64,000 bases of DNA. It comes from Planctomycetota bacterium (GTDB lineage Bacteria; Planctomycetota; UBA1135; GCA-002686595). The position numbers and the translations under genes were made by a program. This document shows, one piece after another, positions 16,719-23,172 of this stretch. The stretch is taken from assembly GCA_002686265.1 (NCBI GenBank), contig NZBA01000036.1, positions 1 to 64,000 of the forward strand. The letters run 5' to 3'. The first letter of the stretch is position 1, and each line of letters starts with the position of its first letter. Under the pieces are notes generated by a model. That model saw nothing but the letters and a program-made list of their open reading frames with translations, was not told the DNA's origin and did not search any database.

Positions 16719-17378
16719 ATGTTCACCGGCATCGTGGAAGGAGTCGGCGTGGTGCGCTCGGTCGTGCCCGCCGGAAGTGGTCTGGTCCTGCGCGTCAGCC
16801 CCCCCGCTGGGCCCTGGAGCGTGTCGGAGGGCGACAGTGTCTCCGTTTGCGGGACCTGTCTGACCGTGGCGGGTTTGGAACCGGGCCAGGGGGATCCCGC
16901 CCGGCCCGCGGGCGGGGGGGCGGAGATGATCTTCGACCTCTCCGCGGAGACCGTGGCGCGGACCTGGTTCGGCGCCCTCGAGTCGGGGTTGCCGCTCAAC
17001 CTCGAGCGCGCGCTGCGCCTGGGCGACCGGCTGGACGGCCACATGGTCTCGGGCCACGTGGACGGTCTGGCGGAGGTGGCGGCCGTCGAGGACTCGGGCG
17101 ACGGCGGCCGGCGCTTCACCTTCGAGGTGGCGCCCGGTCTGGAGCGCTACCTGATCGAGAAGGGATCGGTGACCCTCGACGGCACCAGCTTGACGGTCGT
17201 CGAGCCCGACCGACGGCGCTTCGACGTGGCCGTCATCCCGCTCACCTTGGAGCGCACCAATCTAGGCCGCGCCGTGGTCGGCCAGCGCGTCAATGTCGAG
17301 GCCGACCTGGTCGGCAAGTGGATCGAGCGCCTGCTGCCGCCGTCGGCTTGGCAGCCCGGATCTCGTCCGGGCCGCTAG
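16719..17378 (+). CDS. ribE: Riboflavin synthase alpha subunit
   Basis: MFTGIVEGVG; SVCGTCLTV; GDRLDGHMVSGHVDG; VTLDGTSLTV. Confidence 0.95.
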   Translation: MFTGIVEGVGVVRSVVPAGSGLVLRVSPPAGPWSVSEGDSVSVCGTCLTVAGLEPGQGDPARPAGGGAEMIFDLSAETVARTWFGALESGLPLNLERALRLGDRLDGHMVSGHVDGLAEVAAVEDSGDGGRRFTFEVAPGLERYLIEKGSVTLDGTSLTVVEPDRRRFDVAVIPLTLERTNLGRAVVGQRVNVEADLVGKWIERLLPPSAWQPGSRPGR

Positions 17379-18538
17379 AACGCGCCGAACATGACCGAGG
17401 TGAAGGTCGTGATCGGCGCCGCCTCGCGGTACTCCTCGAGGCTGCGCGTCACCAGGCCGACGGCCTTCATCAGCTCGTCGTACATCTCCTCCTCCATCAC
17501 GAGCTTGCCGACGGTTCCCTCGCCCGCGCGCACCTTGGCCGTGATGGCGGCCACGTCGGCGGCGATCCCCTGGATCTCGACATACAGCTCGTCGCTCGCG
17601 AACAGGCGCCCGACCGTGCTGTCCTCGCTCGCCAGGCGTTGGGTGAAGATCTCGAGGTCGCGCACGATCTTGTCGTCGTTGACCAGGCGCCCGATGCTGC
17701 CCTGGCCGTCGTTGATCTTGCCGACCACCGAGCGCAGGTCCGCCAGGCCCTCGCTCACGTTGCGGCGCATCTCCTCGTCACCCAACAGCGCCGCCACGAC
17801 GCCGTCGCCCTCGCGCACGTCCGTGAGGATCGCCTGCAGGTCCTCGCCGATGGCGGTCAGGGAGCGATAGACCTCGTCCTCGGCGAGCAGCCTCCCGATC
17901 GTCCCCTTGCCCGCGGCGAGATCGGCGGTGATCCGCTCGACGTTGTCGAAGGTGTCCGCGGCGCTGGCGACCCCGCGCTTGAGGTCGGCTCCGAGCTCGT
18001 CGTCGATGAACAGGGGACCGAGGGCGCCGCGACCCTCCTGGACGCCCGAGACCAACTCCCGCACCCCGCTGATGGCCTCCGTCAGAGCGTCGCGGTTCTC
18101 CGCCACCAGCTCGTTGACGGCCTCCATCACGTTGGGAGCCACGGTCCCCGTGAGGTCCGCGCCCGCGGCCAGGTCCGGCGAGTCAGCCGGCCCCGGATCG
18201 ATCGTCAGCACGCGCCCGCCGAGCAGGGTCGCGTCCTCGATCTTGATCTCGTAGTCCCGGCTCAGGCGCACCTGGTCCTCGAGAGCGACGACGACCACGA
18301 TGCGCCTACCGACGGGCGCCGCCTGGTCGTAGGTGATCTGGGCCACGCGCCCCCAGCGCATGCCCGCGACGTGCACGGCGTCGCCCTTGCGCAGGCCGTG
18401 GGCCCTTGAGAAGTACACCGTCTTCTCGAACTCGGCTCCGAAGATCGTGTTGTGGCCGGGCATCAGCGTGAAGAAGGCGAGGATCCCGAAGGCCCCCATG
18501 ATCAAGAGGCCCAGGAGGAAGTGTTTTTGATTGCTCAC
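17375..18538 (-). CDS. mlaD: MCE/MlaD-family lipid transport substrate-binding protein
   Basis: N-terminal TM helix, MCE domain (GLRKGDAVHVAGMRWGRVAQI...LLGGRVLTIDPG), then six degenerate G-x-G-T-x-G-x-L-x-x-D-E repeats. Confidence 0.85.
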   Translation of the reverse strand: MSNQKHFLLGLLIMGAFGILAFFTLMPGHNTIFGAEFEKTVYFSRAHGLRKGDAVHVAGMRWGRVAQITYDQAAPVGRRIVVVVALEDQVRLSRDYEIKIEDATLLGGRVLTIDPGPADSPDLAAGADLTGTVAPNVMEAVNELVAENRDALTEAISGVRELVSGVQEGRGALGPLFIDDELGADLKRGVASAADTFDNVERITADLAAGKGTIGRLLAEDEVYRSLTAIGEDLQAILTDVREGDGVVAALLGDEEMRRNVSEGLADLRSVVGKINDGQGSIGRLVNDDKIVRDLEIFTQRLASEDSTVGRLFASDELYVEIQGIAADVAAITAKVRAGEGTVGKLVMEEEMYDELMKAVGLVTRSLEEYREAAPITTFTSVMFGAF

Positions 18539-19293
18539 GGGTTGTCCTTGGTCTCGGCTTCGCCGAAGAAACGCAGCAGGCGGGGGTGGTCTGATTCGAA
18601 GAACTCCTCGGGGGAACCCGCGTGGACGAGCGCGCGTCCCTCGTCGAGGAAGATCACCTCGTCGGCGACCGCGCGGATGCAGTCGATGCGGTGCTCCACG
18701 ACGATGGCGGTCACGTCCAGCTTCTGGGAGAGCTCCCGGATCTGGCGGTTGATCGAGCGCGCAATCTCGGGATCGAGACCGGCGTTGGGCTCGTCGTAGA
18801 GGATCAGCTCGGGGTCGGTGATCAGGGCGCGCGCGAGGCCGACGCGCTTCTTCATGCCGCCGGAGATCTCCGACGGCATCTTGCTCCCGGTGTCGCCGAT
18901 GTGGACCAGCTTCAGCTTGGCTTGCACGCGCTCGCTGATGTCCTCCTCGGACAGAGAAGTGCTCTCGCGCAGGGGCAGGGCGACGTTCTCCTCGACCGAC
19001 AGCCAGTTGATCAGCGCGCCCTCCTGGAATACGTAACCCATGCGGCGGCGCAGCTCGCGCATCTCCTTGCGGTGTAGCTGGGCGACGTCGCGGTCCTCGA
19101 CGAGCACCTGGCCGGAGTCGGCGCGCGTGAGGCCGATGATGTGGCGCAGGGTGACCGACTTCCCCGTCCCCGACGGTCCCATGATGCCCAGGGTCCGCCC
19201 GCGCCGGACCTCCAGGGACAGCCCGTTCAACACGGACGCGCCGCTGTAGGCCTTGTGCACGTCGACGAAGCGGATGACGGTCGAGTCTTGCAC
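18535..19293 (-). CDS. mlaF: ABC transporter ATPase, MlaF type
   Basis: Walker A GPSGTGKS, GYVFQEGALINWLSVEENVALPL, signature EISGGMKKRVGLARAL, Walker B ILYDEPNAGLDP. Confidence 0.93.
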   Translation of the reverse strand: MQDSTVIRFVDVHKAYSGASVLNGLSLEVRRGRTLGIMGPSGTGKSVTLRHIIGLTRADSGQVLVEDRDVAQLHRKEMRELRRRMGYVFQEGALINWLSVEENVALPLRESTSLSEEDISERVQAKLKLVHIGDTGSKMPSEISGGMKKRVGLARALITDPELILYDEPNAGLDPEIARSINRQIRELSQKLDVTAIVVEHRIDCIRAVADEVIFLDEGRALVHAGSPEEFFESDHPRLLRFFGEAETKDNP

Positions 19294-19297
19294 GCGT

Positions 19298-20074
19298 TCA
19301 GGCCTGGTACATGGCCCAGGTCATGAAGTAGTTGGAGATGATGATGGCGATGATCGAGTCGCGCACGGCGCCGCGCGTCGCGTGACCGACGCCGAGGGCG
19401 CCGCCGGTCGCACGCAGGCCCTGGGCGCAGGAGATGCCCGCGATGATCACGCCGAAGACGAAGGACTTGAGCAGTCCGGCGTAGACATCCTTGGGGATGC
19501 CGATCAGCTCGGACGTCGGTAGGAGGGCGTCAAGGGCCGAATCCATGTAGAGCTGGTAGCCGACGTGCAGCTGGGAGCTGGCCACGAAGCCGCCGCCGAA
19601 GATGCCAATCGTGTCGCAGATGATGGTCAGGATGGGACACATCACGGCCAGGGCAACCAGGCGAGGGACGACGAGGTAGCGCACGCGGTCGATCGACATC
19701 ACCTCCAGGGCCGCCAGTTCCTCGCTGACCGCCATCGTCCCGATCTCGGCGGCGATGGCGCTGCCGACCGTCGCGCTCAGGATCGTGGCCGTGATGAACG
19801 GCCCCATCTCGCGCGCCATGCTGATCGCCACGATGATCCCGATCTGGTCCTGCTGGCCGATGCGCGAGAGCTCGATGCCGGTCTGCAGGGCGACGATCAT
19901 GCCCATGAACAGGCCGACCAGGATTACCACGTGCAGGACGCCGACCCCGCCGTTGTACATGTGGTAGGCGATCATCCGCCGGCGGCGGGGGATCACATCC
20001 AGGCGCGTGAAGGCCTTGAACAAGAGCGAGAACAGGAAGCCCGTGTTCTCCAGGAATTGGCGCAGGAAGCTCAT
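19298..20074 (-). CDS. mlaE: ABC transporter permease, MlaE type
   Basis: MSFLRQFLENTGFLFSLLFKAFTRLD...ATVGSAIAAEIGTMAVSEELAALEVMSIDRVRYLVVPRLVAL is characteristic MlaE; start overlaps the upstream stop (ATGA). Confidence 0.93.
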   Translation of the reverse strand: MSFLRQFLENTGFLFSLLFKAFTRLDVIPRRRRMIAYHMYNGGVGVLHVVILVGLFMGMIVALQTGIELSRIGQQDQIGIIVAISMAREMGPFITATILSATVGSAIAAEIGTMAVSEELAALEVMSIDRVRYLVVPRLVALAVMCPILTIICDTIGIFGGGFVASSQLHVGYQLYMDSALDALLPTSELIGIPKDVYAGLLKSFVFGVIIAGISCAQGLRATGGALGVGHATRGAVRDSIIAIIISNYFMTWAMYQA

Positions 20075-21579
20075 CGGGGGGGGGCGTCTCCGTCGCCGGG
20101 CGCCGTCGCGGGCCCCGTGGATCTGACGCGTTCCAGGGGCCAGCCCGGGCCGGGCAGGGAGGGGGCCATCCACTCTAGGCTCTCGCCCGCCGCCGATCTC
20201 CAGCGCACCAGGCCGAAAAGAAGGGATGTCTCCCGCACCGCCCGGCCCGCGCGGCGGTAGTCGCGGCGGGCCCACAAGCCGGCCAGGGAGCGGCGGTCCT
20301 CGTCGGCGTCCTTCTCGCGCCGCCAGAGCCCGAGCAGGGAGCGCTCGCGCAGGTGCTCCCCGCGCTCCTCGCGGGCGAAGACCGTCCACAGCCAGGAGTA
20401 GTGGCGCTCGAGTTGGGGCATGTGCCAGAGCGGGCTGAGGGCCGGGAAGGAGAAGCGGCTTCCCTCGCTCCCGCGCTGGCTCTGGTAGAGGGGCCAGACC
20501 TTCTCGGTCCGCTGCTCACCGCCGTCGGCGCGCTTGACGTGATCGCCGTCGTAGAAGGGCGTGACGCGCAGGGCGTTGCGCGTGTGGTCGAGGTAGGTCT
20601 CCTCGCGAGAGTTGACGAAGGGCCACAGCCACCAGGTCGAGGTCATGCCGTCACCCTCGAAGCGTGACCAGAGCGGCCACAGGCGCGTGCGCTTCGCCGC
20701 CTTGCTCGTCCCCGGTCGCTGCACTCGAACCAGGGGCCACACGTCCCAGGATCGGAAGCCGCTGCGCGGATCGCGCGCGTATCCGAAGAAGGGCCACAGG
20801 ACGGTCGTGGCCTCGAAGCTCCCCTGACGCGCGCGTCCGAAGAAGGGGAACACCGACCAGCGCGAGCGCCGCCGCTCGGGGGGCAGGGAGAGCTTGTCGC
20901 GCTCGAAGCTCACGAAGGGCCAGAGGAAGAACCAACGATCGTAGTTGCCCTCCAGGTGCGCGTGTCCGGCGAGAGGCCAGACGCGCCAGCCCTCGGCGCC
21001 CTCGCCGGAGAGGAAGCGGAAGAAGGGAAACAGGAAGTGGTGCGCGACGCGCCCGTCGCGCTCGGTTCGCATGTAGAGCGGCCAGAGCGCGAAGTCGATC
21101 TTGTCGAAGGTCAGCAGCTTCTCGACTCGTCCGGCCACCGGCAGCCAGGCGCGCACCGTGCGACCGTCGGGGAAGCTGGCGAAGTAGACCAGCGGGAAGC
21201 CGAAGTAGGACCAGGTGCGCGTGCCGTCGGCGTGGGTCCGGCGCTGGTACTGGCCGAACGGAAGCAGGCGCGAGAGCTGCTCGTCGGGCGTGATCGAGAC
21301 CAGACCGAGGGGCGCGAGGAACTCCGTCTTCCGGCGTCCCTCGCCCGGGTGGGAGTGGAGGAACAGCGGGCGCAAGCCGAACTCGGTGATCTCACCGCCG
21401 GGGGCGTCGCGCTGCAGGACGAACGCTCCGCCGGCGGCCTCGATCTGCTCACCCCCGCCCGCCGTGGAGAGCTGGGTGAACAGCGGCGCCACGTGGCGGT
21501 CCGTCGCGTAGCTCGCACAGCCCGCCGCGAGGAAGCCGGCGAGCGCCAGGGAGCCGACCATGGGGCGGAGTGGACGCAT
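20071..21579 (-). CDS. Putative WP-repeat lipoprotein, first gene of the mla-like operon
   Basis: Lipobox GFLAAGC; about 12-15 degenerate (L/V)(W/F)P(L/F) repeats every 17-24 aa; stop overlaps the mlaE start. Confidence 0.8.
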   Translation of the reverse strand: MRPLRPMVGSLALAGFLAAGCASYATDRHVAPLFTQLSTAGGGEQIEAAGGAFVLQRDAPGGEITEFGLRPLFLHSHPGEGRRKTEFLAPLGLVSITPDEQLSRLLPFGQYQRRTHADGTRTWSYFGFPLVYFASFPDGRTVRAWLPVAGRVEKLLTFDKIDFALWPLYMRTERDGRVAHHFLFPFFRFLSGEGAEGWRVWPLAGHAHLEGNYDRWFFLWPFVSFERDKLSLPPERRRSRWSVFPFFGRARQGSFEATTVLWPFFGYARDPRSGFRSWDVWPLVRVQRPGTSKAAKRTRLWPLWSRFEGDGMTSTWWLWPFVNSREETYLDHTRNALRVTPFYDGDHVKRADGGEQRTEKVWPLYQSQRGSEGSRFSFPALSPLWHMPQLERHYSWLWTVFAREERGEHLRERSLLGLWRREKDADEDRRSLAGLWARRDYRRAGRAVRETSLLFGLVRWRSAAGESLEWMAPSLPGPGWPLERVRSTGPATAPGDGDAPPR

Positions 21580-22683: not shown

Positions 22684-23172
22684 ATGACCGCCCCCGGCTT
22701 CCCCCGCCACGTTCCGGCGCTCGCCCTCGTCTGGCTCGCGGCCTGCGGCGCTCCCCGGAGCGCCGAGTCCTCTGTCGAGCCCATCGCGGACGCGCCGGCG
22801 CGCGGCTGGACGAGCACCTTCTCCGAGCCCGCCGTCTTGATCGCCGACGAGGTCCGCGTCGAGGGTCCGCGCGGCCTGCTCGACCACTTCGCGGTGCGCA
22901 TCGAGGAGCGCGCTCACGAACGCACGGAGAAGACCACGCCCGCCGGCTACCTGCAGCGCTTCGACGTGCGCTCCGACGGAGTCCAGACCGAGATCCGCGC
23001 CTGGCTCGACGACCTCGAGATCGTCGCTCTGCGCTCCCTGACCGCCTTGGAGCGGCCGGGCGAGGTGGACGTCTCGGTCCTCGCCCGCGGCGACGCCTTC
23101 TGGAAGAGCGTCGCCGACGGCCGGGAGCGCCGCGGCGGGGTCCTACGCCTGTCGGGCGAGTTGGAGCGCTGA
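22684..23172 (+). CDS. Hypothetical lipoprotein
   Basis: Signal peptide ending LVWLAACG; starts 2 nt after the trpS stop; no family recognised. Confidence 0.65.
   Translation: MTAPGFPRHVPALALVWLAACGAPRSAESSVEPIADAPARGWTSTFSEPAVLIADEVRVEGPRGLLDHFAVRIEERAHERTEKTTPAGYLQRFDVRSDGVQTEIRAWLDDLEIVALRSLTALERPGEVDVSVLARGDAFWKSVADGRERRGGVLRLSGELER

Follow-up and report, generated by a model that had tools for sequence, protein, structure and literature searches.

A WP-repeat lipoprotein encoded with MlaEFD in Planctomycetota is a candidate for the outer-membrane end of a trans-envelope bridge

Introduction

The locus described here raises the question of how an MlaEFD system reaches the outer membrane when its MlaD carries no C-terminal β-barrel, and whether a lipoprotein rich in W-P repeats, encoded by the first gene of the same operon, provides this contact. 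MlaA and MlaC are missing from most bacteria that have MlaEFD; in Veillonella parvula, the envelope can be spanned by a long MlaD whose C-terminal barrel is located in the outer membrane (PMC10665443). The same study reported the barrel to be absent from the PVC group and left open both the outer-membrane contact of barrel-less long MlaDs and the existence of helper proteins for them (PMC10665443).

Operon architecture

The window, i.e., the whole 64,000-nucleotide stretch of DNA that was analysed, comes from a Planctomycetota genome assembled in 135 contigs (92% complete) whose relatives include Poly30, Pla163, and Pla86. The operon lies on the minus strand and comprises (i) the gene of the 502-aa WP-repeat lipoprotein, for which the label LWP was coined in this analysis (20071..21579; stop TGA at 20073-20071), as its first gene; (ii) the mlaE permease gene (19298..20074; PF02405, E=2e-65); (iii) the mlaF ATPase gene (18535..19293; PF00005, ABC_tran, E=1e-33), with a GTG start and with PRK11831 (MlaF) among the best matches of its product; and (iv) mlaD (17375..18538; PF02470, E=6e-13), whose product displays a transmembrane helix at residues 2-25 and an MCE domain at residues 37-114. 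A MlaE permease, a MlaF ATPase, and a MlaD MCE protein within a single operon meet the test for an MlaEFD core. The reading frame at 20071..21579 proposed in the earlier note is a real gene with a lipobox, its minus-strand orientation having been left unstated there, and the translational coupling suggested for the four genes holds at every junction: the LWP stop overlaps the mlaE ATG (ATGA), 4 nt separate the TGA of mlaE from the GTG of mlaF, and mlaF and mlaD overlap in GTGA.

Two further observations concern the surroundings and the form of the gene. A small predicted lipoprotein is encoded at 22685-23172 of the window, downstream of the divergent trpS and on the trpS strand. At one locus (L144:5910-8339, genome G318), LWP and MlaE form a single continuous frame of 810 codons, where family members have an intervening stop; this may be either a natural fusion or a sequence error.

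Export signal and repeat region of LWP

The N-terminus of LWP (MRPLRPMVGSLALAGFLAAGC) comprises a signal peptide and the lipobox GFLAAGC with Cys21, fulfilling the criterion for a lipoprotein. The lipobox cysteine is kept in 59/59 homologs of the order, and a lipobox was recognised, by script and inspection, in ~35/40 distant LWPs. Lipoprotein status is not universal, being ruled out by family f33 (L132, L133, L136) and genome G097 (L147), where LWP carries an ordinary signal peptide without a lipobox. There is no Asp at +2 of the cysteine (C-A-S); under the E. coli lipoprotein sorting rule, untested in Planctomycetota, the +2 residue of LWP is compatible with the outer membrane.

The WP-repeat region (20458..21369, minus strand; residues ~71-374) displays 16 W/F-P turns, on average 19.5 aa apart (range 17-24). 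The motif [LVIAF][WF]P[LFVI] matches LWP 10 times, whereas shuffled sequences are expected to give 0.33 matches (at most 4 in 5000 shuffles), and the repeat prolines are kept in 90-100% of 59 homologs, most of them being invariant, so that the run of degenerate motifs at 17-24-aa intervals described previously is real; it is also longer than had been listed, with ~16 units from about P71 to P363 and weaker units up to ~residue 460. Each repeat proline is flanked at -2, -1, +1, and +2 by residues that are 90-97% hydrophobic and nearly uncharged, positions -7 and +6 being about half charged. The dN/dS of 0.20 against a same-genus genome indicates that LWP is under purifying selection.

Family identity and predicted fold

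Searches with LWP returned nothing above cut-off in Pfam or NCBIfam and no sequence match in the PDB, in agreement with the earlier statement that no named family could be recognised; there was no match to the MlaA family PF04333 (Pfam scan to E=10) or to the PqiC family models (Pfam scan to E=10, NCBIfam). Lipoprotein_15 was rejected as the family of LWP, the match (E=0.007) covering 18 residues only and falling below the cut-off. No homologs were found in the viral contigs and plasmids searched.

The AlphaFold2 model of LWP, built with 59 orthologs, is all-β (mean pLDDT 94.5, pTM 0.82), which supports, at the level of a model only, the β-rich structure that had been proposed. According to the DSSP assignment, it comprises about 45 short strands in addition to the signal helix, with most repeat prolines located in tight turns joining successive strands, e.g., strands 238-243 and 247-252 around P245; the hydrophobic W-P turns would therefore line one edge of the sheet, an inference drawn from the DSSP string only. 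Judging from the DSSP assignment and the type of structure matched by Foldseek, the overall arrangement would be a long antiparallel β-meander, the choice between propeller, solenoid, and barrel remaining unsettled. Foldseek searches against the PDB and BFVD gave E values down to 8e-6 with TM-scores to the query of at most 0.19 and large rmsd, and the matches are thus read as local hairpin resemblance only, to antiparallel sheets of OspA, CPAP TCP10, teneurin, WD40, and VDAC. OspA, CPAP TCP10, and the teneurin YD shell resemble LWP in their successive antiparallel hairpins but share neither a sequence family nor a global fold with it. The fold check of the model therefore gives no global counterpart in these databases, whether a known enzyme or a known barrel.

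WP-repeat proteins of the FPLYW type also occur apart from the LWP operon, at loci L334-L348 (contigs G100:C168, G119:C212, G091:C76, G081:C318, G361:C17, G005:C2, and G108:C65), in open frames of 386-1467 aa with up to ~27 repeats. None has a Pfam family over cut-off; the paralog L340 gives a weak match to LA_1737_Cterm (NCBIfam NF047486; E=2e-5, 25 bits versus a cut-off of 60), whereas LWP itself gives none. Since WP-repeat proteins are found away from mla genes, the repeat is not specific to lipid transport. A wider unnamed superfamily is thereby indicated, of which LWP provides a confident fold model without a global match.

Distribution and linkage to mlaEFD

LWP was detected in 80/81 genomes searched among the relatives of the source genome; in the one exception (G019), mlaE and mlaD are unmatched as well, which points to a gap or to loss of the whole operon. 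The survey was confined to Planctomycetota, and the named records matched in one contig scan were all planctomycetes. Among 399 sampled Planctomycetota genomes, 161 contain LWP matches, 152 of them strong (E<1e-40), and the homologs span dozens of families.

Within the order, LWP occurs together with mlaEFD at 40/40 loci (one gene being split across two contig ends), in the conserved block CysG-DTD-TrpS-LWP-mlaEFD-RibE-TrmD-RplS-SecDF. Such conservation is what would be seen if the linkage were merely local synteny of one lineage, a reading that is hardly tenable: LWP lies inside the mla operon at 38/40 distant loci of the phylum (in one, between mlaF and mlaD), and 20 of these 38, a few on short contigs, have none of TrpS, DTD, CysG, RibE, TrmD, RplS, or SecDF, which contradicts plain synteny, as does the spread of the homologs over dozens of families. 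The two unlinked distant loci belong to family f35, of which two more genomes are alike (4 genomes); here LWP, mlaE, and mlaD reside on separate contigs, the MlaDs keep the C-terminal tail described below, and mlaE is of the same clade. The neighbourhood survey that the earlier note had called for thus finds LWP linked to mlaEFD wherever the contig suffices, with one family-level exception, and the assignment of LWP to the MlaEFD system is well supported.

MlaA, MlaC, and other mla loci

The previous remark that MlaA and MlaC are unrecognisable extends to the whole source genome, in which, at 92% completeness, neither MlaA (PF04333) nor MlaC (PF05494) was matched, the E. coli and Caulobacter controls being positive; there is therefore no E. 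coli-type pathway in this genome for the LWP operon to work with. The outcomes named in the earlier note as refuting its proposal, a known unrelated enzyme or barrel fold, or homologs never linked to mla genes together with a complete MlaA/MlaC elsewhere, were both looked for, and neither was observed. MlaA was found in 5/41 and MlaC in 2/41 genomes searched. In G007 and G020 the two adjoin, as additional systems, G007 also having an adjacent MlaD. The source genome contains a second MlaE and MCE locus (L231; G000:C96:43348-45115), of another MlaE clade and without LWP.

The MlaD stalk and its conserved tail

The AlphaFold2 model of the window MlaD (pLDDT 78.6) displays the transmembrane helix, the MCE domain, and a helical stalk at residues 137-373, with no barrel and with the tail modelled at low confidence. 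The source genome has no match to the planctomycete barrel profile, and with a helical MlaD C-terminus the test for a Veillonella-type barrel is not met. Along the stalk (window 17378-18130), repeats of ~34 aa with the pattern GxGxxGxLxxDxxL are seen in the consensus of 51 MlaDs.

At LWP loci, the C-terminus of MlaD is a conserved tail with the pattern REAAPI..F..LF..F, which in the window corresponds to residues 368-387 (EEYREAAPITTFTSVMFGAF; 17378..17437, minus strand). Only six positions are invariant over 51 MlaDs, namely G10, G59, G63, and, in the tail, R371, E372, and P375. The tail motif occurs in 70/72 MCE proteins from LWP loci versus 0/25 from loci without LWP, the two misses being a variant (EEQAPI) and a second MCE protein. 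The bond between LWP and tail is not universal: two genomes of family f78 keep a divergent MlaD tail without a detectable LWP.

Interchange of LWP with an MlaD bearing a putative barrel

Two operons within the LWP clade of MlaE have neither LWP nor tail, and their MlaDs, of 589 and 683 aa, end in a domain of ~200 aa that has no Pfam model and that we read, from its sequence pattern, as a putative Veillonella-type β-barrel. A profile of this domain matches 47/399 Planctomycetota genomes, which indicates barrel-bearing MlaDs in this phylum, contrary to the absence from the PVC group reported in PMC10665443. Barrel-like MlaDs were seen at L268:7546-9312, L269:8013-10061, and L311-L330.

LWP (152/399) and the barrel-bearing MlaD (47/399) occur together in a single genome, versus 17.9 expected (Fisher p=1e-9), and in that genome (G101) they are on different contigs. 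LWP loci never contained a barrel, nor did the barrel loci examined contain LWP. Genomes whose best MlaE is close to that of the window number 113, of which 83 encode LWP without the barrel, 23 the barrel without LWP, 1 both, and 6 neither; among the 76 other genomes, with an MlaE not close to it, 70 have no LWP or barrel. Of the genomes with neither, those of f51 display a rearranged operon and a different MlaD end. In those of f78, the gene immediately upstream of mlaE resembles acetylglutamate kinase, and on the contig of G220 no MCE gene could be detected. The LWP and barrel operons sampled for the MlaE tree all group in a single clade (93/87) with interleaved labels; the LWP label changes 6 times and the barrel label 4 times, at least 4 and at least 2 of these changes being forced by well-supported branches. 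The Fisher values and co-occurrence counts are uncorrected for phylogeny or shared ancestry, and since the LWP and barrel operons were selected for the tree by those very features, the rarity of operons with neither cannot be demonstrated from the tree alone. LWP and the MlaD barrel are almost mutually exclusive.

These patterns bear on two other explanations. LWP might be an envelope protein of other function, e.g., one that scaffolds the outer membrane or the peptidoglycan, merely co-transcribed with mlaEFD; the occurrence of WP-repeat proteins in other contexts and the f35 genomes, which encode LWP away from mla genes, are compatible with this, whereas the persistence of the mla linkage where all other tested neighbours are gone, and the tracking of LWP by both the MlaD tail and the barrel swap, make it unlikely. 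More room is left for an LWP that works within the Mla system on the periplasmic or inner-membrane side, as an MlaC-like lipid carrier or as a sleeve of the MlaD stalk, and not at the outer membrane: some LWPs have plain signal peptides, the source genome has no MlaC, and the lipoprotein sorting rule of planctomycetes is not known. This arrangement is possible, but we consider it doubtful, given that most homologs keep the lipobox and that LWP alternates with an MlaD barrel of the kind placed in the outer membrane in Veillonella (PMC10665443), not with MlaC.

Proposed role of LWP

Because it accompanies MlaEFD where MlaD lacks the barrel, LWP is a strong candidate to supply the outer-membrane end that is missing there. 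Based on the barrel swap, the MlaD tail, and the lipobox, we favour, as the most likely reading and with some confidence only, that LWP provides in trans the outer-membrane end of an MlaEFD bridge across the envelope and thereby substitutes for the MlaD barrel. In the proposed arrangement, (i) MlaE and MlaF would sit in the inner membrane; (ii) the helical stalk of MlaD would cross part of the periplasm and end in the conserved tail; (iii) LWP, exported and usually lipid-anchored, would present a β-meander with hydrophobic (L/V)-(W/F)-P-(L/F)-(F/Y) apices at its repeat turns; (iv) from the inner face of the outer membrane, LWP would receive the MlaD tail, both location and contact being inferred; and (v) LWP would form the outer-membrane end of the bridge, replacing the β-barrel that related MlaDs carry in cis. 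The outer-membrane-side partnership suggested in the earlier note thus gains support from the barrel swap and the MlaD tail, while the outer-membrane location, the contact with MlaD, and the lipid conduit it envisaged are still inference; the lack of localisation, interaction, or lipid data counts against the outer-membrane-end reading, and the direction of transport is likewise inferred. Only tentatively can a more specific form be put forward, in which LWP would be an outer-membrane lipid port, a rolled β-meander with its W-P turn edge in the inner leaflet and a lumen taking lipids from the MlaD tube, repeatedly exchanged with the MlaD barrel. The outer-membrane-end reading is directly testable, since it names a particular gene found across much of the phylum, the MlaD tail that goes with it, and a naturally occurring barrel swap.

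Comparison with known systems

The MlaEFD core is known; the LWP partner, the MlaD tail, and the barrel interchange appear to be new, no description of the LWP family or of the other two having been found in the open-access literature. The six-component Mla system of E. coli requires MlaA and MlaC, both missing from the source genome. MlaA, the outer-membrane lipoprotein of that system, is comparable to LWP in role, as a lipoprotein working with MlaEFD, but not in sequence. PqiC offers a second comparison: it is a lipoprotein encoded, like LWP, with an MCE system (PqiABC), and it meets and can hold the MCE protein at the outer membrane, yet it belongs to another family and forms an octameric toroid, whereas LWP is a 502-aa β-repeat protein (PMC10897342). 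The closest parallel is the minimal MlaEFD system of Veillonella, which, like that of the window, comprises MlaE, MlaF, and a long MlaD with a helical stalk, without MlaA or MlaC, and for which a trans-envelope bridge has been proposed; the Veillonella MlaD carries a C-terminal outer-membrane β-barrel, whereas the MlaD of the window lacks such a barrel, its operon encoding a WP-repeat lipoprotein as a separate protein.
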